A program made the position numbers and the translations under genes. This document shows, piece by piece, positions 18,980 to 30,405 of a stretch of DNA of 64,000 bases. The notes beneath the pieces are model-generated. The model was not told the origin of the DNA. It saw only the letters and a list, made by a program, of their open reading frames with translations, and searched no databases. How positions within the stretch are numbered: position 1 is the first letter of the stretch; each line of letters opens with the position of its first letter. The DNA is from Synechococcus sp. PCC 7336 (GTDB taxonomy: Bacteria; Cyanobacteriota; Cyanobacteriia; Thermostichales; PCC-7336), in assembly GCF_000332275.1 (NCBI RefSeq), contig NZ_CM001776.1:62001-126000 (forward strand), given 5' to 3'.

Positions 18980-19174
18980 CTAATTCTCGCCGCGATCGCT
19001 CAACGCCTGAATAGACCGTGCATTACTGTCAACCAATTGCTTTAACTCAGCAATTTCTGTTTTAAACTGCTCAAAAGCGCGCTGGTTCGCCTCCTCGTGC
19101 TCGATCTGCATTTGGGCCAACTGCTGGATTAATCTACCTGCGATCGCAAAATTTTCCCGAATTTCATCGTCCAT
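18980..19174 (-). CDS. Small coiled-coil protein, duplicate 1
   Basis: The 64-residue product MDDEIRENFAIAGRLIQQLA... is predicted to be almost entirely alpha-helical, with heptad spacing of hydrophobic residues (LIQQLAQMQIEHEEANQRAFEQF...). It has no Cys and no membrane segment. A second gene at 19573-19767 encodes the same protein with changes limited to residues 36-52. Homology extends into both flanks, so this is a recent local duplication. The family is unknown to me. A coiled-coil dimer or a regulatory subunit is plausible but not shown. Confidence 0.6.
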   Translation of the reverse strand: MDDEIRENFAIAGRLIQQLAQMQIEHEEANQRAFEQFKTEIAELKQLVDSNARSIQALSDRGEN

Positions 19175-19572: not shown

Positions 19573-19767
19573 CTAATTCTCGCCGCGATCGCTCAACGCC
19601 TGAATAGCCCGAGAATTGCTCTCCACAAGCTGCTCTAATTTCACCACTCGCCGCTCGAACCGTTCAAAAGCACGCTGGTTCGCCTCCTCGTGCTCGATCT
19701 GCATTTGGGCCAACTGCTGAATTAATCTACCTGCGATCGCAAAATTTTCCCGAATTTCATCGTCCAT
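19573..19767 (-). CDS. Small coiled-coil protein, duplicate 2
   Basis: This 64-residue protein is identical to the product of 18980-19174 over the first 35 residues and over the C-terminal QALSDRGEN. It diverges in the middle, where FKTEIAELKQLVDSNARS becomes FERRVVKLEQLVESNSRA. The changes keep the heptad pattern and charge, which suggests the protein is under selection. DNA identity continues beyond both ends of the gene (for example CATGCCGCTGACTCACCTCG upstream of both). It lies 130 bases from pyrH on the same strand, where frr often lies in other genomes. Confidence 0.6.
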   Translation of the reverse strand: MDDEIRENFAIAGRLIQQLAQMQIEHEEANQRAFERFERRVVKLEQLVESNSRAIQALSDRGEN

Positions 19768-21069: not shown

Positions 21070-23100
21070 ATGGTGCAACTCAATCTGGACATCGTGACTC
21101 CTGCGGAGGAAGGAAGGGTGGTGTTGGGGCGAACCTTGCCCGCATTGCTGGACGAGGCTTGCGAACAGCGACCTAATCTGGCAGCCCTGAATCAGTGGGT
21201 CGATCGCCAGTGGCAGCCCCTCTCCACTCAAGCCTTGCGGGTAGCAGCTGAGGAATTGGCCTTGGGGCTGCTGGATTTGGGGGTGAAAAAAGGCGATCGC
21301 GTGGCGTTATTTATGGAGAGCAATACGCAGTTTGCGATCGCCGATATGGGTTGCGCGATCGCGGGGGCCGTGAATGTCCCTATCGATCTATTAGAGGCTC
21401 CATCTGCAATTCAACATATTTTGAACCATGCCGAAGTCAAGATTGTAATGGTTTCCAGTTGGATGCTACTGCAAAAGATTGCGCCTTATTTAGGAACTTC
21501 GAGATATTTGAAAACGGCGATCGTGGCCGATAAAACCTTTCCCACAACCGAGGACTTTCACTTTCCCGCCCTCAAACTTAATGACTTGACCCTGAATGAG
21601 GTGCGCGCCCGAGGGCGCAAGCAGTTTTCGGTGGGGAAACGCCGTTGGTTGCGTTCTCGCATTCAACCCACCGATCTGGCCACGATTATTTATGTGATTG
21701 GTTCCGTCGAGCACATTAGCGAGCCGGATCGGGGAGGCCGATTGGCCCACTTAGCCGATGCTATGCACCGACAGTTGCTCAGTCGCAGTCAAGCGGGGCC
21801 TGCTTGCGATGTGCCGCGCGGCGTAGCTCTTACCCACGAAAACATTACCGCGAATATTTTGGCGGCGTTTGACTCCCATCCCGATCTCAAATTGGGGCAG
21901 TCGGAGGTGGCGCTATCTTTCTTGCCTCTCACCCATATTTTTGCGCGGGCCTTTCTGTACGGCCACCTCTATTACGGGCACAGCGTGTTTTTCTCCAGCC
22001 CCGAGCGGGTGGGTCGAATGTTGCGGATGGTGCAGCCCACTATTTTTATTACGGTGCCGAGGCTGTTGGAAAAAGCCTACGAGCGGATTCTGAGTTCCGG
22101 CAGCCAACGGCGGGGGGTGTCAAAACTACTGTTTAATTGGTCGCTGCAATTGGCCCATCGCTACGAGATCGGACAGCCGCCACAAGGACTCTATGCCCTG
22201 CAACTGTGGCTGGCCAATCGGCTGGTGTTTCCCAAGTGGCGGGAAGCTTTTGGAGGCAAGCTCAACTATTTGATTTGTGGCGGCGCGGCCTTGAGGGCCG
22301 ATATTGCCAATGTATTTTCGGCAGCCAATATCCCCGTTTTGCAGGGCTACGGGCTGACGGAAACCAGTTCGGTGGTGTGTTACAACCGAGGCTCTCGGAA
22401 TCGGGCCGGTACGGTGGGGGTGCCGATTCCGGGGGTGGAGCTGGCGATCGCCGCAGATGGCGAGATCTTGGTGCGATCGCCCTACGTGATGAAGGGCTAT
22501 TACCGAGACGAGGCGGCAACGCGAGCGGTGCTCGATCGCGATGGTTGGTTTCACACGGGCGACTTGGGTCGCTTGAGTGAAGACGGTTTTCTGGAGATCT
22601 CGGGTTATAAGAAAGAGTTATTCAAACTCTCTACGGGCAAATACGTGTCGCCGCAGCCGTTAGAGCGGTATTTGATGCATTCGCCATTTGTGGATCGAGC
22701 GATCGCCGTTGGAGCCCATCGCAAGTTCTGCTCGATGCTAATTTTCCCCAATCGCGAGCGGCTGCAGCAGTGGGCGATAGAAGAGGGAATTGAGACAGAG
22801 GAGGAGGATTGGTTGGAGCATCCGCAGGTGTTGCAACTGTTCCAAACCTTGGTGGATGAGGCCAATGAATGTTTGCCCTATTGGTCGCGGGCCAAGCAAT
22901 TCCAATTGGTCGATCCAGATGTGGCCTCAGAAAGTGGCATTTTTGCAAACGATCGCCCCATGCACCGAGCCCATGCCCACAAAGTATTCGCTGCGGCGAT
23001 CGACGCCATCTACAGTACCCCCATCAAACAACTGGTTTTTGCACTTGCAGTTCCCCTAACCAGATTGGCGCAATTTGCGGGGCGCTTGACTTCGACCTAG
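21070..23100 (+). CDS. Long-chain acyl-CoA/ACP synthetase-like protein with an altered P-loop
   Basis: The 676-residue protein belongs to the adenylate-forming family that activates fatty acids to acyl-CoA (or acyl-ACP in cyanobacteria). Conserved parts are VKKGDRVALFMESNTQFAIADMGC, LPLTHIFAR, INYLICGGAALR-like LNYLICGGAALR, LQGYGLTETSS (A5), WFHTGDLGRLSEDGFLEISGYKKELFKLSTGKYVSPQPLE (given here in parts: WFHTGDLG, A7, and GKYVSPQPLE, the catalytic Lys loop). The A3 P-loop, normally YTSGTTGxPRG, is missing: residues 208-250 read YVIGS, then about 35 unrelated residues, then VPRGVALTHENI. This may abolish ATP use or mark a non-canonical enzyme. It leads the beta-oxidation cluster, 36 bases before the fadN-like gene. 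Confidence 0.85.
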   Translation: MVQLNLDIVTPAEEGRVVLGRTLPALLDEACEQRPNLAALNQWVDRQWQPLSTQALRVAAEELALGLLDLGVKKGDRVALFMESNTQFAIADMGCAIAGAVNVPIDLLEAPSAIQHILNHAEVKIVMVSSWMLLQKIAPYLGTSRYLKTAIVADKTFPTTEDFHFPALKLNDLTLNEVRARGRKQFSVGKRRWLRSRIQPTDLATIIYVIGSVEHISEPDRGGRLAHLADAMHRQLLSRSQAGPACDVPRGVALTHENITANILAAFDSHPDLKLGQSEVALSFLPLTHIFARAFLYGHLYYGHSVFFSSPERVGRMLRMVQPTIFITVPRLLEKAYERILSSGSQRRGVSKLLFNWSLQLAHRYEIGQPPQGLYALQLWLANRLVFPKWREAFGGKLNYLICGGAALRADIANVFSAANIPVLQGYGLTETSSVVCYNRGSRNRAGTVGVPIPGVELAIAADGEILVRSPYVMKGYYRDEAATRAVLDRDGWFHTGDLGRLSEDGFLEISGYKKELFKLSTGKYVSPQPLERYLMHSPFVDRAIAVGAHRKFCSMLIFPNRERLQQWAIEEGIETEEEDWLEHPQVLQLFQTLVDEANECLPYWSRAKQFQLVDPDVASESGIFANDRPMHRAHAHKVFAAAIDAIYSTPIKQLVFALAVPLTRLAQFAGRLTST

Positions 23101-23136: not shown

Positions 23137-25497
23137 ATGATGTTTCGACCATTCCGAACAGCAGCAGTTCTCGGCGCGGGGGTGATGGGCAGCCAAATTG
23201 CCGCCCATCTAGCCAATGCCGGCCTAACCGTTCACCTACTGGATTTGCCGAGCGATCGCGGCTCGAAAAACGCTCGCACTGAGATGGCTCTGAAAAAAGG
23301 GCAGAAGCAATCGCCACCGATTTTCTTTAGCGAGACTGTCGCTCGGCGGGTGTTGGCGGGCAATTTTGAAGACGATTTCCATCGCCTGTCTGGGGTGGAT
23401 TGGGTTATCGAGGCAGTGGTAGAAAATCTGCCGGTCAAGCAGGAGTTGATGGAGCGGATTGAAGCCGTGGTGGGTGAAGATGCCATCATTTCCACCAACA
23501 CCAGTGGGTTGCCGGTGAGCGAGATTGCCCGAGGGCGATCGCCCTCCTTCCGCCGCCGCTTCTTAGGCACTCACTTTTTCAACCCGCCTCGCTATCTCAA
23601 ACTGCTGGAATTGATTCCGACAACCGAGACCGACCCGCAAGTGTTGGAACGGGTGCAATGGTTCGGGCGAATGCATCTGGGCAAAGGGGTGGTGGTGGCC
23701 AAAGATACGCCCAACTTTATTGCCAACCGGATTGGCGTGTTTGCCACAATGCTTGCTTTGAAGTGGTGGCTGGATGAAGGCTACACGATCGAGGAAATCG
23801 ATACGCTGACCGGGACGTTGGTAGGACGACCCAAGTCGGCCACCTTTCGAACAGCAGATCTGGTGGGGCTGGATACGTTGCTGTATGTGACGGACCATCT
23901 CTACGAAGCAATTCCCCATGACGAAAGCCGGAAGCTGTTGCTGGCTCCCGAGGTAATGCGCAAGTTAGTGGCGACGGGCAGTTTGGGGGCAAAAACGGGC
24001 CAGGGATTTTACAAGAAGGTCGATCGCCAAATTCTCTCCCTCAACCCCGACTCATTAGAGTACGAACTGCCTCGGCCACTCGATTTAGATCTGGAGGCGA
24101 TCGCCAAGCTGCCCCTAAACGACCGCTTGCCAGACCTCTACGCCGACCCCGGTCGAGCTGGCGCTTTCTTCCGTCAAACCAGCTTGGAAATCCTGGCCTA
24201 TGCCGCCAGCCGCATTCCCGAAATTGCCAACAGTCCGATCGAGATCGATCGCGCTTTGCGATGGGGCTTTGGCTGGCAATTAGGGCCGTTCCAAACCTGG
24301 GATGCGTTGGGCTTTAGCAAGGTATTGGAGGATATGAAAGCCGCCAATCTGACGGTACCCGATTGGGTGGAGCAGATGGAGCTGTCGGGCTTGACCGAGT
24401 TCTACAACCGCGTCGAAGAAGGCAGCGCCGAGGTGTTGTGGGTATACGTTCCCGAAACCGGCTATGCACCTGTCGATATCACGCCGGACGAGTTGGATCT
24501 CGACGACCTTAAAGCCGATCCTGCTAAAACCCTGTGGAGCAATCCCGAAGCAGCACTGCTGGATATCGGCGATGGGGTGTTGCTGTACGAGTTTCGCTCG
24601 AAGGGCAATACCCTGACCGACAAGGTGGTGCGGGGACTGAACGAAGTGCTGGATTTTCTGGAAAGCGCTTCCTACAGCGGTTTGGTCATTGGTAACGACG
24701 GCCCTAATTTCTCGGCGGGGGCCAATTTGCAGGAAATGGCCGGGACTGCACAGCAAGGGGGTGCAGACGCGGTTGCGCAGATGCTGGCTCAGTTCCAAGG
24801 CTTAATGCAGCGGCTTCGCTATTTCCCCAAGCCGATTGTGGCGGCGATGCGGGGGCGAGCACTGGGGGGTGGCTGCGAGCTGGTGATGGCTTGCCCCCAC
24901 GTGGTGGCAGCGGCAGAAAGCTACATCGGCCTGGTGGAACTCAGTGTCGGACTGGTACCTGCTGGAGGGGGCATGTTGCGGATGGTGTCGCGGGCGGTCG
25001 ATCGCGCTGCCAGCGAATCTCCCAGCCACATCCAACCTTGGCTGAAGGCGGCGTTTGAAACGATCGCCACGGCCAAAGTATCCAACAGTGCGGCAGAGGC
25101 GATCGCACTGGGCTATTTGCCCGCTGACACGGTGGTGGTGATGAATGGCGATCGCCTCCTCTACGTGGCCAAGCAAGAGGTGATGCGCCTGGAGCGAGAG
25201 GGCTACGCACCCCCTCCAGATAATGTCTTGATGCTACTGGGCAGTTCAGCTCGGGCGGTGTTGGAGCATATGGCTTACACGATGGTGGAGGGGGGCTATG
25301 CCTCGGAATACGATCGCGCTTTGGCCCATCGCTTGGCCTATGCCATGACGGGTGGGGAGTTGACGGTGCCGTCATTGGTGCCGGAGCAGTATTTGCTCGA
25401 TTTGGAGCGGCAGGCGTTTGTGCCGCTGTTGGCGGAGGCGAAAACGCAGGAACGGATGGCGTATTTGTTGAAGCACAAGAAGCCGCTGCGCAATTAG
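23137..25497 (+). CDS. FadN-type 3-hydroxyacyl-CoA dehydrogenase / enoyl-CoA hydratase
   Basis: The 786-residue bifunctional enzyme does hydration and NAD-dependent dehydrogenation of fatty acyl-CoA in beta-oxidation. The order is dehydrogenase first, as in Bacillus FadN: AAVLGAGVMGSQIAAHLANAG (NAD fold), VIEAVVENLPVKQEL, IISTNTSGLPVSEIA, then FLGTHFFNPPRYLKLLELIPT with the catalytic His and the conserved Asn-Pro. The hydratase domain begins near residue 470: GLVIGNDGPNFSAGANLQEM (oxyanion hole), RGRALGGGCELVMACPHVV and IGLVELSVGLVPAGGG with a catalytic Glu. It is 36 bases after the ligase gene, with GAGGG before the start. It works with the thiolase and FadE encoded next. Confidence 0.93.
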   Translation: MMFRPFRTAAVLGAGVMGSQIAAHLANAGLTVHLLDLPSDRGSKNARTEMALKKGQKQSPPIFFSETVARRVLAGNFEDDFHRLSGVDWVIEAVVENLPVKQELMERIEAVVGEDAIISTNTSGLPVSEIARGRSPSFRRRFLGTHFFNPPRYLKLLELIPTTETDPQVLERVQWFGRMHLGKGVVVAKDTPNFIANRIGVFATMLALKWWLDEGYTIEEIDTLTGTLVGRPKSATFRTADLVGLDTLLYVTDHLYEAIPHDESRKLLLAPEVMRKLVATGSLGAKTGQGFYKKVDRQILSLNPDSLEYELPRPLDLDLEAIAKLPLNDRLPDLYADPGRAGAFFRQTSLEILAYAASRIPEIANSPIEIDRALRWGFGWQLGPFQTWDALGFSKVLEDMKAANLTVPDWVEQMELSGLTEFYNRVEEGSAEVLWVYVPETGYAPVDITPDELDLDDLKADPAKTLWSNPEAALLDIGDGVLLYEFRSKGNTLTDKVVRGLNEVLDFLESASYSGLVIGNDGPNFSAGANLQEMAGTAQQGGADAVAQMLAQFQGLMQRLRYFPKPIVAAMRGRALGGGCELVMACPHVVAAAESYIGLVELSVGLVPAGGGMLRMVSRAVDRAASESPSHIQPWLKAAFETIATAKVSNSAAEAIALGYLPADTVVVMNGDRLLYVAKQEVMRLEREGYAPPPDNVLMLLGSSARAVLEHMAYTMVEGGYASEYDRALAHRLAYAMTGGELTVPSLVPEQYLLDLERQAFVPLLAEAKTQERMAYLLKHKKPLRN

Positions 25498-25527
25498 GGA
25501 TTGAGTGGGTCTGGTACTTTCCTGGCT

Positions 25528-25563
25528 TTGCACTCAGCCCCCCAAATCCCCCATTCTGGGGGA
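25528..25563 (+). repeat. Palindromic repeat between the fadN and thiolase genes
   Basis: TTGCACTCAGCC is followed by AAATCCCCCATTCTGGGGG, whose CCCCCA/TGGGGG arms make a hairpin. The same sequence occurs in inverse orientation at 31789-31825. Within the operon it could stabilise or attenuate the mRNA before the thiolase gene. Confidence 0.6.
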
Positions 25564-25661
25564 CTTGCCGAGATTTTCTGAGCTAGCTCTGTGCCGATCC
25601 CACAAGCCAATACCCGCGACTGGTTTCACAGGAGCGATACTCCCCCTTTGAGGTAATCCCG

Positions 25662-26849
25662 ATGAAAAACGCATACATCATATCGAGTCTGAGAACTGCT
25701 GTAGGCAAAGCCCCCCGAGGCAGTTTGCGTACCGTCCGTCCCGACGAATTGGGTGCTGCCGTGGTGAAGGCAGCGATCGCCCGCGTGCCCAATTTGGACC
25801 CCAACATCATTGATGACGCCATCTTTGGCTGCGCCTTTCCCGAAGCCGAACAGGGGATGAATTTGGGGCGGGGGGTGGCCCATCGAGCGGGCTTGCCCGT
25901 TTCTGTGCCCGGTTGTACGGTCAATCGCTGCTGTGCTTCGGGGTTGCAGGCGATCGCGATGGCGTCTCAGGCGATCGAGACCCAACAAGCGGAGGCGATT
26001 GTCGCTGGTGGGGCCGAATCCATGAGCTTAATGCCTCCGGGCGGCCACTACCTCGCCCCCAACCCCGAGTTGATGGAACAGTGGCCGGAAACCTATATGA
26101 CGATGGGGTTGACTGCAGAGCGAGTGGCGCAGGATTTCCACATTTCTCGTCAGGATCAGGATGAGTTTGCCCTGCGATCGCACCAGCGGGCTTTGGCGGC
26201 GATCGAAGCTGGACGCTTCGCTGAGGAAATCGTCCCTTTCACTGTCCGAGCCACCGTTTATCAAAACGGCCATCCCCAACCCCTCGAAACCCCCTTCGAT
26301 CTTGACGAAGGCCCCCGCCCGGATACCAGTCTCGAAGCACTCGCCCGTCTCAAGCCTGCCTTCAAAGCCAACGGCACCGTCACAGCAGGCAATTCCTCGC
26401 AAATGTCGGATGGGGCGGCGGCGGCGATCGTTGTCAGTAAAGGGTTGCTGGCACGATTGGGAGTGAAGCCGCTGGGTCGACTGCTGGGCTATGCCGTCGC
26501 CGGAGTTCCGCCAGAGATTATGGGCATGGGGCCGGTGGCAGCGGTACCCAAAGTACTCGCTCAGGTGGGTATGGACCTGCAAGAGATCGGCGCGATCGAA
26601 CTGAACGAAGCCTTTGCGGCCCAATCGCTGGCCGTAATTCGCAAGTTGGGGCTGGATGAGTCGATTGTGAATGTGAATGGGGGGGCGATCGCCCTCGGCC
26701 ATCCCCTCGGCTGCACGGGGGCCAAACTGACGGCAACATTGCTGCACGAGATGAAGCGTCGCGGCATCCGTTACGGCCTTTGCACCATGTGTATTGGCGG
26801 CGGCATGGGGGCTGCAGGGGTGTTTGAGAATTTGAGTTTCCAAAATTAG
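25662..26849 (+). CDS. fadA: Acetyl-CoA C-acyltransferase (3-ketoacyl-CoA thiolase)
   Basis: The 395-residue thiolase cleaves 3-ketoacyl-CoA with CoA, the last step of each beta-oxidation turn. The nucleophile Cys is in [17 protein letters not shown] (around residue 90). The conserved C-terminal motifs are [19 protein letters not shown] (His) and [18 protein letters not shown] (second Cys). VAGGAESMS and [12 protein letters not shown] are also family features. The length is standard. The start at ATG 25662 has TTGAGGT upstream. The 164-base gap from the fadN-type gene carries a hairpin repeat; the FadE gene starts 18 bases after the stop. A biosynthetic (PhaA/AtoB) role is possible in principle, but the neighbours argue for degradation. 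Confidence 0.93.
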
Positions 26850-26867
26850 CTGCTGGAGGTGTTGGCG

Positions 26868-29363
26868 ATGAATGTCCTTCAACCAATCGTCGTTATCCCA
26901 ATTCTGTTCGTTGCGCTCCTCGCACTGGGCTATATCGGAGTTCCCATGTGGGCGTGGTTTACCTATCTCGCGGCGTGCCTAGCTTACGCTCACAGCCCGG
27001 TTTGGCTGTGGGTCTCGTTCGGTTTGGCGGCGATCGCCCTCAACCTTCCCGTCCTGCGTCGAGTCCTCGCGACCGCTTGGGTGATGAAGGGGATTCGAGC
27101 GCTCGACCTGCTGCCGCGCATTTCCGAAACGGAACGGGCGGCGATTGAAGCGGGGAATGTTTGGGTGGACGGAGAACTGTTCTCCGGTCGGCCTGACTTT
27201 CGGCGAATGATGGACGAGCCCTACCCGCAACTGACGGCTGACGAGCAAGCGTTTCTGGACGGACCGGTGGAACGGGCTTGCCAAATGACCAGCGATTGGG
27301 AAATTTATCAGCGCCGCGACTTGCCCCCTAAGGTGTGGGATTTTCTCAAACGAGAACGATTTTTGGGCCTGATGATTCCCCCAGAATATGGCGGTCTGGG
27401 CTTCTCGAATGCAGCCTACAGTGCCGTGATGGCCAAGTTGGCTTCGCGATCGTTCACCTATGTCGCCACCGTCGGCGTCGCCAACTCCCTCGGCCCCGCC
27501 AAACTCCTGCTCAACTACGGCACGCCAGCCCAAAAGGATGACTACTTGCCGCGACTCGCCCGTGGCGAAGACATTCCCTGCTTCGCTCTGACCGAACCCA
27601 CCGCTGGCTCCGATGCCGCCAGCATCACCTCTAATGGCATCGTCTTTAAAGCAGACGACGGCAAGCTCTACCTTCGCCTCAACTGGAAAAAGCGGTATAT
27701 CACCCTCTCCACCATCGCCACTCTGCTCGGCCTTGCCTTCCAACTCAAAGACCCCGAGAACCTATTGGGCAAAGGGGAAAACGTCGGCATCACCTGCGCC
27801 TTAATTCCCACCCACACCCCTGGCGTCACCATCAATCAGCGACACGACCCTATGGGTGTCCCCTTCTACAACTCCCCCACCGAAGGCCGCGATGTCATCG
27901 TCTCGATCGAGCAAATCGTCGGCGGCACGGCCCAAGCGGGAGAGGGCTGGAAAATGCTGATGCAAACCCTCGCTGCCGGTCGCGGCATCAGCTTCCCAGC
28001 CACCTGTGCGGGCGTGGCTAAATTGGTTTCCCGAGTCACCGGAGCCTATGCCACTGTTAGACAGCAGTTCGGCCTTTCCATCGGCAAATTTGAAGGGATT
28101 GAAGAGCCCTTGGCTCGCATTGGCAGCTTGACTTACATCGTCGATGCTGCCCGCCTCTATACCGTTGGGGCAGTGGATAAAGGGGAAAAACCGGCCGTGG
28201 TTTCGGCGATCGCCAAATACACCACCACCGAACTCTCCCGTCAAATTATCAATGACGGTATGGATATTCTCGGGGGGGCAGGCATTTGTCGGGGACCGCG
28301 CAATCTCCTGGCTAACATCTACACTGCCACGCCCATTTCCATCACGGTGGAAGGGGCCAATATTCTGACGCGATCGCTGATGGTCTTCGGCCAAGGCTCC
28401 ATCCGCTGTCACCCCTACCTCTACGCCGAAATCGCCGCCCTCGAACAGCAGGATCTCGTCGCTTTCGATCGCGCCTTCTGGCCCCACATCGGTCACTTCG
28501 CCCGCAACTACTTCCGAGCCAAACTGCTCAGCCTCACCCGAGGACGCCTCGCCCGTTCCCCCATTGCCGGTCCTACGGCTCGGTACTACCGCAAACTTGC
28601 CTGGTCTTCAGCCATCTTTGCCTTACTGAGCGACCTAGCCACAATCTCCTTCGGCGGCAGCCTCAAACGGCGGGAAAAACTTGCTGGACGCTTCGCCGAT
28701 ATCCTTGCTTGGATGTATTTGGGCACAGCCACCCTGCGTCGATTTGAGGCAGAAGGTCGCCGGTCGGAAGATTTACCGCTGCTGGATTGGGCCATGCAAT
28801 ACAGCTTCGATCGCATTCAAACTGCCTTTGAAGGCATCCTCAGTAATTGGTCGGCTCCGATCGCGGGCGGTCTGCTGCGCGGTCCCTTCGCAGGCTGGCG
28901 GCGACTCAATCCAATTGGTCTCATGCCCAGCGATCGCCTGGGCGCTCGGGTCGCTCAAATTCTGCAAGCTCCCGGTCAGCAACGCGATCGCCTCACCCAG
29001 GGCATCTACATTCCTGCTCATCGAGAGGACGATGGCAGCGAGGAATCACTCGCTCGCCTAGAGCGAGCATTTGCTCTGGCTGTCGAGACCGAACCAATCG
29101 TCAAAGCCATCAAAGCAGCTTGCAAATCCGGTCAACTTCCCCCACAAAAACCGCAACAGCTCGTCCGGGCAGCATTGGCTGCCGAAGTGATTTCTGCGAC
29201 CGAAGCCGAGCGGCTCCAAATCGCTGAAGCGGCTCGCTATGACGCTATTCAGGTGGATGCCTTCGATTTAGCAGGCGATCCGCCGATTGCCCAAAGGGTA
29301 CAGAAGGGTGGATTCGCTGAGGCGATCGGCCATGCCTTTCCCGTTGCAGCGGCCACAGGCTAA
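26868..29363 (+). CDS. fadE: Acyl-CoA dehydrogenase, E. coli FadE type
   Basis: The start is taken as ATG 26868 (MNVLQPIVVIPILFVALLAL), with CTGGAGG upstream; a TTG at 26859 is less likely. The 831-residue protein matches the large E. coli FadE (814 residues). It has two N-terminal hydrophobic segments (residues 5-65). The flavoprotein core has PPEYGGLGFSNAAYSAVMAKL, CFALTEPTAGSDAASI and GTAQAGEGWKMLMQTLAAGRGISFP. Then comes MDILGGAGICRGPRN, with a DUF1974-type C-terminal region from about residue 530. It does the first, FAD-dependent step of beta-oxidation, probably at a membrane. Cyanobacteria usually lack this enzyme. It ends 52 bases before the hydrolase start. Confidence 0.92.
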   Translation: MNVLQPIVVIPILFVALLALGYIGVPMWAWFTYLAACLAYAHSPVWLWVSFGLAAIALNLPVLRRVLATAWVMKGIRALDLLPRISETERAAIEAGNVWVDGELFSGRPDFRRMMDEPYPQLTADEQAFLDGPVERACQMTSDWEIYQRRDLPPKVWDFLKRERFLGLMIPPEYGGLGFSNAAYSAVMAKLASRSFTYVATVGVANSLGPAKLLLNYGTPAQKDDYLPRLARGEDIPCFALTEPTAGSDAASITSNGIVFKADDGKLYLRLNWKKRYITLSTIATLLGLAFQLKDPENLLGKGENVGITCALIPTHTPGVTINQRHDPMGVPFYNSPTEGRDVIVSIEQIVGGTAQAGEGWKMLMQTLAAGRGISFPATCAGVAKLVSRVTGAYATVRQQFGLSIGKFEGIEEPLARIGSLTYIVDAARLYTVGAVDKGEKPAVVSAIAKYTTTELSRQIINDGMDILGGAGICRGPRNLLANIYTATPISITVEGANILTRSLMVFGQGSIRCHPYLYAEIAALEQQDLVAFDRAFWPHIGHFARNYFRAKLLSLTRGRLARSPIAGPTARYYRKLAWSSAIFALLSDLATISFGGSLKRREKLAGRFADILAWMYLGTATLRRFEAEGRRSEDLPLLDWAMQYSFDRIQTAFEGILSNWSAPIAGGLLRGPFAGWRRLNPIGLMPSDRLGARVAQILQAPGQQRDRLTQGIYIPAHREDDGSEESLARLERAFALAVETEPIVKAIKAACKSGQLPPQKPQQLVRAALAAEVISATEAERLQIAEAARYDAIQVDAFDLAGDPPIAQRVQKGGFAEAIGHAFPVAAATG

Positions 29364-29415
29364 TGCGGTTTTGGGTTGTCAAACCCCTGACCGAACCGCC
29401 CGAGAGGAGATGCAG

Positions 29416-30405
29416 ATGGAACCCGTCAAAATAAAATCTGCCAAATTCGGACACCACCGCGAAGGAACCTTTATTGGGGTAGGCGGCTTGCGCCTCTACT
29501 ACCAAAGCTGGCTGCCCCCCCAAGCACCGCGCGCTATCTTGGTTTTGGTCCACGGCTTGGGCAGTCATAGCGGCAGCTTCGAGAACCTCGCCAACCTGTT
29601 AGTACCCTACGGCTATGGCATGTATGCCTTCGACATGCGCGGCCACGGGCGATCGCAAGGGCAGCGGGGATACATCCAAACTTGGTCGGAGTTCCGCCAA
29701 GATCTCGACACCTTCCTGGCCCTGATCGATCGCCAAATCAGCGCTTGCTCGCGCTTTTTAGTCGGCCACAGCCTCGGTGCGGTGGTCATACTGGAGTTTT
29801 TGATGCGCTCGCAGCCCTCTGTATCTCAACCCTCTGTATCTCAACCCTCTGTATCTCAACCCTCTGTATCTCAACCCTCTGTATCTGGGGCGATCGCGAT
29901 GGCTCCCGCTCTAGGCCGGGTGGGGGTGCCGCCCGTAAAATTGGCGATCGGGCGAGTACTCTCCAACATCTGGCCCCGCTTCAGTCTCGACACCGGCCTC
30001 GAGGCTGAAGCAGCCGTTCAGGATAAAACACTCCTGCAAGCCAATCTCGAAGATCCGCTGCGACATACCCAAGGCACCGCGCGGCTGGCGACAGAATTTT
30101 TACAAACCGTCGATTGGATTCACGAGCATGTCGATCTCTGTCAGTTTCCCCTATTGATCCTGCATGGCGGTAGCGATCGTATCGCTCTGCCCGAAGGCAG
30201 CCAGCAATTTGCCGAGCAATTGCCCCACCGCGACACATCCTGCTTGGTTTATCCCAATACCTATCACGATCTCCATCAAGAGGTGAATGCTCCCCAGGTG
30301 GCTGCCGACCTCCATCAATGGGTCGAAGCTCGCAGCGATGCGCAACAATGTCAGATTCTAGCCTTGCCCCAGCGTGGCGATCGCGTCATTTGGCAAGCCT
30401 CCTAG
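29416..30405 (+). CDS. Alpha/beta hydrolase, monoacylglycerol-lipase-like
   Basis: The start is ATG 29416, six bases after AGGAG; ATG 29410 lies too close to it, and an upstream in-frame ATG at 29287 is inside fadE. The 329-residue protein has the oxyanion region LVLVHGLGSHSG, MRGHGRSQGQRGYIQTWSEF, nucleophile elbow GHSLGAV, the Asp in ILHGGSDRIALPEGS and the His in NTYHDLHQE, the layout of monoacylglycerol lipases. It would release fatty acids for the cluster upstream. Directly after the nucleophile helix the chain contains five QPSVS repeats coded by a 15-bp tandem array (29812-29886), which relatives do not usually have. No signal peptide is seen. Confidence 0.88.
   Translation: MEPVKIKSAKFGHHREGTFIGVGGLRLYYQSWLPPQAPRAILVLVHGLGSHSGSFENLANLLVPYGYGMYAFDMRGHGRSQGQRGYIQTWSEFRQDLDTFLALIDRQISACSRFLVGHSLGAVVILEFLMRSQPSVSQPSVSQPSVSQPSVSQPSVSGAIAMAPALGRVGVPPVKLAIGRVLSNIWPRFSLDTGLEAEAAVQDKTLLQANLEDPLRHTQGTARLATEFLQTVDWIHEHVDLCQFPLLILHGGSDRIALPEGSQQFAEQLPHRDTSCLVYPNTYHDLHQEVNAPQVAADLHQWVEARSDAQQCQILALPQRGDRVIWQAS
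29812..29886 (+). repeat. In-frame 15-bp minisatellite, five units
   Basis: The unit CAACCCTCTGTATCT (first copy CAG for CAA) is repeated five times inside the hydrolase gene and codes for QPSVS each time. As the unit is a multiple of three, copy-number changes keep the frame. The near identity of the units implies recent expansion. Confidence 0.95.

Follow-up and report, generated by a model that had tools for sequence, protein, structure and literature searches.

The gene at positions 21,070 to 23,100 of the window (the 64,000-nucleotide stretch of Synechococcus sp. PCC 7336 DNA analysed here) would be the 'ligase' of a complete cyanobacterial β-oxidation operon, and acyl-adenylate formation has most likely been lost in the clade of long-chain acyl-CoA-synthetase relatives to which its product belongs. 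The reading that we favour, with a probability of about 0.6 on sequence and model grounds, is that this relative of acyl-CoA ligases does not adenylate and has been kept to bind or transfer acyl groups or acyl-CoA in this operon without ATP. The motifs that have gone are those that hold the ATP phosphates and drive adenylation (the A3 P-loop, the A8 arginine, the A10 lysine and, in half of the members, the A5 glutamate), and what is kept is the fold together with the side for the acyl group and adenine (A5 Tyr/Thr), the A7 aspartate that binds ribose, and the CoA-side loop of A8. Such a protein would remain in the CoA-facing state, work without ATP, and bind acyl groups or acyl-CoA or transfer them between a lipase or Aas (acyl-ACP synthetase) and FadE. 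With the ATP-handling parts gone in all relatives examined and the rest kept by selection, its probable role is either to handle activated fatty acids with no need of ATP or to guide them. The ligase-like gene occurs in 74 of the 388 sampled genomes of a class often said to lack β-oxidation, with FadB, thiolase and FadE linked to it almost wherever the neighbourhood is visible; if the operon ligase cannot adenylate, both how these phototrophs make acyl-CoA and what an adenylate-forming fold does without an ATP site become testable. Cyanobacteria are stated to lack β-oxidation in an excerpt of PMC7379126, and in an excerpt of PMC7133116 no β-oxidation homologues were found in Synechocystis.

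Table 1. Features of the ligase-like gene and its operon (positions in the window; residue numbers refer to the window protein).
Feature	Positions	Strand	Remarks
ATP-site-degenerate long-chain acyl-CoA-ligase homologue, 676 aa	21070..23100	+	PF00501 and PF23562
YVIGS, residues 208-212, at the A3/P-loop position (canonical YTSGT)	21691..21705	+	
Insert of about 35 residues, 213-247, in frame	21706..21810	+	pLDDT < 50 over 213-242
VPRGVALTHENI, residues 248-259, retained end of the A3 segment	21811..21846	+	
His299 and His304, clade-specific histidines	21964..21981	+	72/74 and 73/74 of the clade; mostly other residues in the 77 canonical relatives
A5 QGYGLTETS, retained	22342..22368	+	Glu to Gln in 36/72 clade members
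A7 GWFHTGDLG, retained	22543..22569	+	Asp498 in 71/71 of the clade
A8 GYKKELFKLSTGKYVSPQPLE, with Tyr513 in place of the Arg invariant in the superfamily; loop on the CoA side kept	22603..22665	+	
A10 position ESGIFANDRPMHR, catalytic Lys motif gone	22930..22968	+	
FadB/FadN-type 3-hydroxyacyl-CoA dehydrogenase / enoyl-CoA hydratase	23137..25497	+	
FadA-type thiolase	25662..26849	+	
FadE-type acyl-CoA dehydrogenase, 834 aa	26859..29363	+	with ACDH_C
Monoacylglycerol-lipase-like alpha/beta hydrolase (Hydrolase_4)	29287..30405	+	true start probably later

The reading frame is uninterrupted over its full length (Table 1), and the ANL superfamily fold is present, with a match to PF00501 at 203 bits and a C-terminal match to PF23562 at 39.7 bits. 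Set against the features of a functional ATP-dependent acyl-CoA synthetase, the protein lacks the A3 motif, the A8 arginine and the A10 lysine, and retains the A7 aspartate and the Mg-binding glutamate of A5 (Glu431, equivalent to Glu328). At A3, where canonical enzymes have YTSGTTGxPKG, Y208-VIGS is followed by the insert (VEHISEPDRGGRLAHLADAMHRQLLSRSQAGPACD) and then by VPRGVALTHENI; A8 has GYKKEL in place of DRKKEL or GRAKD; and A10 reads ANDRPMHR where the lysine motif TPTLKxKR is expected. Nor is this an Aas-type A8, since GRAKDTIVLxNGENIEP is replaced by GYKKELFKLSTGKYVSP when the protein is compared with the Aas proteins L003, L017, L019, L027 and L038. The first-pass annotation had described an otherwise intact enzyme in which A3 was exchanged for about 35 unrelated residues. 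The in-frame insert is indeed there, and A5 (YGLTETS) and A7 (HTGDLG) are as it described them, but the insert has been added to a P-loop that was already non-canonical, the A8 arginine and the A10 lysine are lost as well, and the C-terminal Lys loop that it took to be intact is the A8 loop FKLSTGKY, not A10.

These losses are shared by the whole clade. In the class-wide search, clade members or pieces of them scored E = 6e-101 or better and the best other row, on the Aas side of the gap, 7e-99, the one exception to this cut being a short extra fragment in G083 at 8e-90. We compared the 74 clade members with five Aas proteins and with 77 canonical relatives from other phyla, the latter taken from 80 loci among the matches listed after three had been dropped (two clade members and one truncated protein); statements on relatives outside the cyanobacteria thus apply to the matches listed. 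Already among the seven close relatives from the first search (L010-L016), those without the insert also lacked TSGTTG. Canonical A3 occurs in none of the 74 clade members (73 readable at this site, L187 being the exception) versus 73 of 77 canonical relatives under a strict pattern, and the other four are near-canonical (one HTSG, three with a single-letter difference). The A8 arginine is found in 0/71 clade members versus 77/77 canonical relatives, and the A10 lysine motif in 0/74 (four are cut off before it, leaving 70 readable) versus 76/77, and in all five Aas proteins. At A5 the canonical relatives have Glu throughout (77/77), whereas the clade is divided evenly between Glu (36) and Gln (36). 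Glu328, Gly384, Asp418, Arg433 and Lys524 (Arg433 in T. thermophilus LACS numbering) are reported as invariant across 374 superfamily sequences in an excerpt of PMC6122825. Measured against these five, the clade lacks the equivalents of Arg433 and Lys524 throughout and has lost that of Glu328 in half of the members readable there, but keeps Gly384 and the ribose-binding Asp418 (Asp498 in the window protein).

Published single mutants indicate how much such changes might cost. Excerpts of PMC2793005 report that FadD13 K487A lost 96.3% of activity and that K172A raised the Km for ATP tenfold, and Table 2 of PMC6122825, also available in part, gives effects of 2,000-fold for T161A, 50-fold for E306Q and 4-fold for K169M in CBL. 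These mutants support a severe, not always total, loss of activity, and as activity can survive one such change, residual adenylation by the clade proteins is conceivable. That we are dealing with an acyl-CoA synthetase that still depends on ATP, bound in a new way by the remodelled loop (and by the insert where there is one), nevertheless strikes us as quite unlikely. The retained Tyr/Thr of A5 and Asp of A7 would provide adenine, α-phosphate and ribose contacts, and an operon that needs acyl-CoA would have its natural source in the ligase slot; against this, the Arg433 and Lys524 equivalents are gone from every readable member, the loop is often acidic (position 212 is Glu in 38 of 73 clade members), and the model gives the insert region a pLDDT below 50. 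Among the three alternatives that the first-pass annotation had left open (an inactivating insertion, use of another ligase, or a non-adenylating acyl-binding variant), the third fits best, no readable member having A3 (73), the A8 arginine (71) or the A10 lysine (70); it is also backed by purifying selection and a conserved operon, grounds which that annotation did not have. We found no account of the cyanobacterial clade in the literature searched, which covered few subscription journals.

The insert itself appears to be a secondary feature. Of the 73 clade members readable at A3, 65 have no insert, yet the canonical motif is absent from these too. Because the insert-free members lack the same motifs, loss of adenylation, as judged from the alignment, is not caused by the insert, contrary to the earlier suggestion that it inactivates the enzyme. 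Nor do the relatives present the picture expected of a simple mutation in this copy, in which they would lack the change and no conserved replacement would be seen. Inserts at the same site, with 38-40 residues between the flanking motifs, occur in eight genomes (the window genome, G187, G194, G201, G215, G221, G228 and G364), so that the segment is shared in length and place with seven others, but in shuffle tests against these seven the window insert showed no significant sequence similarity: 57 of 1000 shuffles scored as well against the G364 insert, and 318-486 of 1000 against those of the six f27 genomes. The G364 insert does resemble those of the f27 genomes, a match equalled by 1-15 of 1000 shuffles. 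On these shuffle results a common origin is suggested for some inserts, namely that of G364 and the f27 set, and is not shown for the window insert. By a quick method, the insert label requires two changes on a tree of 82 rows, 70 from the clade and 12 from canonical relatives (four clade members of fewer than 500 residues, insert-bearing G221 among them, were omitted), and its carriers lie near the base of the clade. In the predicted structure the insert, which a minority of the clade carries, forms a loop modelled with low confidence where the ATP phosphates would otherwise sit.

A sequencing or assembly error is extremely improbable. The source genome is a single 5.07-Mb contig in which the 133-bp stretch with the insert is present once, other matches within the genome being only 14-21 bp long. 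The insert reads as ordinary coding sequence, because its third-position GC (0.60) is close to that of the whole gene (0.63); this normal codon composition and the seven other genomes with inserts of similar length at the site speak against an error. Nothing positive speaks for one beyond the circumstance that the search of class genomes yielded no near relative in which the exact insert could be compared. An origin from a repeat or mobile element was rejected, given the single genomic copy and the lack of any match when a plasmid collection was searched with the insert stretch. A hidden frameshift swap was likewise rejected, as no A3-like motif was seen when 21641-21900 was translated in the other five frames.

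Structure prediction offers a further hint at the state of the protein. The AlphaFold2 (AF2) model of the window protein has a mean pLDDT of 88.3, and its structural match to 5bsr gives a VIA Z of 44.2. It aligns over the whole chain with 5bsr (496 residues at 3.1 Å), 4g37 (506 at 3.2 Å) and 4eat (492 at 2.9 Å), and over less of the chain with 5bsm (413) and 4g36 (429). The model of L054, a canonical ligase from a Rhodothermales genome, made by the same procedure (pLDDT 90.4), shows the reverse, with 490 residues at 4.3 Å for 5bsm and 488 at 4.2 Å for 4g36 versus 403 for 5bsr and 411 for 4g37. Going by the entry titles, we take 5bsr, 4g37 and 4eat to represent the thioester-forming state, and 5bsm and 4g36 an ATP- or adenylate-state. 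It is thus suggestive, as one model against one, that the window protein is modelled as thioester-forming and canonical L054 as adenylate-forming; 5bst and 5bsw, both with adenylates, land on opposite sides of this conformational contrast.

The gene neighbourhood is conserved as well. In the window, genes for FadB, thiolase and acyl-CoA dehydrogenase adjoin one another on one strand, and NCBIfam Staph_FadB is the best match of the FadB/FadN-type neighbour. Together with the ligase-like gene, the stretch 23137-29363 makes up a complete β-oxidation gene set in a photosynthetic cyanobacterium. FadB adjoins the ligase-like gene in all 64 loci with at least 3 kb downstream (73 other loci were examined), and the order ligase-FadB-thiolase-FadE holds in 48 of the 49 cyanobacterial loci for which 8 kb or more could be read; the remaining one, L226, does have FadB and thiolase. 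With strict partner motifs, the counts with and without were 28 and 40 for the ECH motif, 57 and 11 for HCDH GAGVMG, and 32 and 10 for lipase GHSxG; for the loci missed, the patterns are taken to be too strict. An upstream lipase is common, not universal: it is present in 36 of the 56 unfused loci with at least 3.5 kb upstream (in 35 within 2.5 kb, in one close or overlapping). In three genomes (G030, G155 and G160; loci L052, L165 and L221) the lipase is fused to the ligase-like protein, giving about 990-1020 aa. We also considered whether a further conserved gene separates lipase and ligase, and rejected this, because no family other than the lipase (42 loci) was widely recurrent. In L204 (G132) the upstream lipase lies on the opposite strand, unlike all other upstream-lipase loci examined, and in L188 and L194 the upstream lipase homologue is much extended at its N-terminus, in an ORF of up to 841 aa.

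This linkage might also be explained by a pure scaffold or allosteric pseudoenzyme, which would bind free fatty acid or acyl-CoA and organise FadB-FadA-FadE or the lipase with no chemistry of its own. The strict operon association, the three lipase fusions and the conservation of the fold without adenylation motifs fit such a role, but the clade-specific histidines at 299, 304 and 317 and the retained CoA-side A8 loop suggest that there is more to the protein, even though the window copy has Met317, and we consider it an unlikely explanation. Clade-specific residues besides His299, His304 and His317 are Phe267 and Ala292. Cys554, tried as a clade-specific nucleophile, was rejected, being Cys in 71/71 clade members but also in 18 of the 77 canonical relatives. 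A bolder and rather doubtful proposal is that of a CoA-facing, ATP-independent acyl-thioester enzyme that moves acyl groups from Aas-made acyl-ACP or from the fused lipase onto CoA, using the vacated ATP pocket with His299 and His304; if this were true, fatty acids would be burnt in cyanobacteria by an operon that has no classical acyl-CoA ligase. The clade resembles ANL pseudoenzymes in having lost catalytic residues and retained the fold; in the literature searched, no paper was found for 'ANL superfamily' with 'pseudoenzyme', and a closer precedent could lie beyond it.

Another source of acyl-CoA in the genome may be conceivable. The PF00501 profile gave 18 matches on the source genome, of which the window gene, matched in pieces, accounts for two, and two Aas-type proteins (L003 and L230) have canonical A3, A8 and A10. 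Further matches are presumably an acetyl-CoA synthetase-like protein (L001), an acetoacetyl-CoA-synthetase-like protein, MenE and an FAAL. Most of ten further matches sit in very long ORFs, which we take to be typical of NRPS. The cyanobacterial Aas belongs to the same superfamily as the window protein, with 34-41% identity over parts of the second half, and unlike it keeps YTSGTTGxPKG, GRAKD and a TQTxKIKR-type A10 (in the five aligned proteins and the second copy of this genome). On this basis fatty acids could be activated by one of the two Aas-type enzymes, the window gene being a decaying relic, and the long branch of the window copy (0.67) would agree with decay. The frame is open, the insert is divisible by three, FadB linkage is strict wherever there is room to see it, and dN/dS in relatives is low, all of which make the relic very improbable.

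Selection was measured in pairs of other clade members, as the window copy has no close relative, and in these the gene is under purifying selection. Nei-Gojobori dN/dS ranges over 0.044-0.243 in 12 clade pairs, all but one of which fall within 0.04-0.12; a number of synonymous distances are above 1 and therefore rough. For FadB and thiolase, the partner genes, the corresponding range is 0.03-0.12 in the 11 pairs that have both. Such values and the open frame are not those of a pseudogene. Over 52 codons of the A3 region, two insert-bearing f27 pairs have 10 non-synonymous versus 25 synonymous differences and 5 versus 28, so that in relatives the A3 region, too, is constrained.

As to origin, a quick tree places the cyanobacterial clade on one side of a branch from the 12 canonical outgroup rows (SH-aLRT 99). 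The closest canonical relative among the matches listed is the Rhodothermales protein L054, at 41% identity. It shares with the window protein the fold, A5, A7 and the A8 loop FKLSTGKYV, and occupies the same operon slot, before FadB-thiolase-FadE (partner identities 53, 62 and 60%), but it keeps A3, the A8 arginine and the A10 lysine, as expected of ACSL/FadD (EC 6.2.1.3), all absent from the readable cyanobacterial clade members. The same operon slot thus holds a canonical ligase in Rhodothermales and a counterpart without ATP motifs in cyanobacteria, a natural comparison. Within the cyanobacterial phylum, A3 is kept in 22 of 22 loci examined from outside the class. Judging by where they fell in the phylum-wide search, we presume these loci to represent non-photosynthetic lineages. 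That search also gave one more protein from the class of the window genome, L235, and this one lacks A3. The canonical outgroup points to loss as the direction of change, and the simplest history would be that a working operon ligase was deprived of its ATP site before the cyanobacterial clade diversified. The Staphylococcus aureus fadXDEBA locus is likewise a β-oxidation operon with a ligase gene, and its FadB has two domains in unusual order, a likeness to the Staph_FadB match of the window neighbour; its gene order is unlike that of the window, and the abstract names no lipase (PMC12369327, available in part).

Two minor observations concern repeats in the window. Inside the lipase-like gene, 29815-29886 is a perfect 15-bp tandem repeat of 4.8 copies (CCCTCTGTATCTCAA) that encodes a QPSVS peptide repeat and looks like a recent in-frame expansion. 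On the minus strand, the neighbouring 64-aa ORFs at 18980-19174 and 19573-19767 have the same start (MDDEIRENFAIAGRLIQQLAQMQIEHEEANQRAFE); one of them was searched in Pfam and gave no match.
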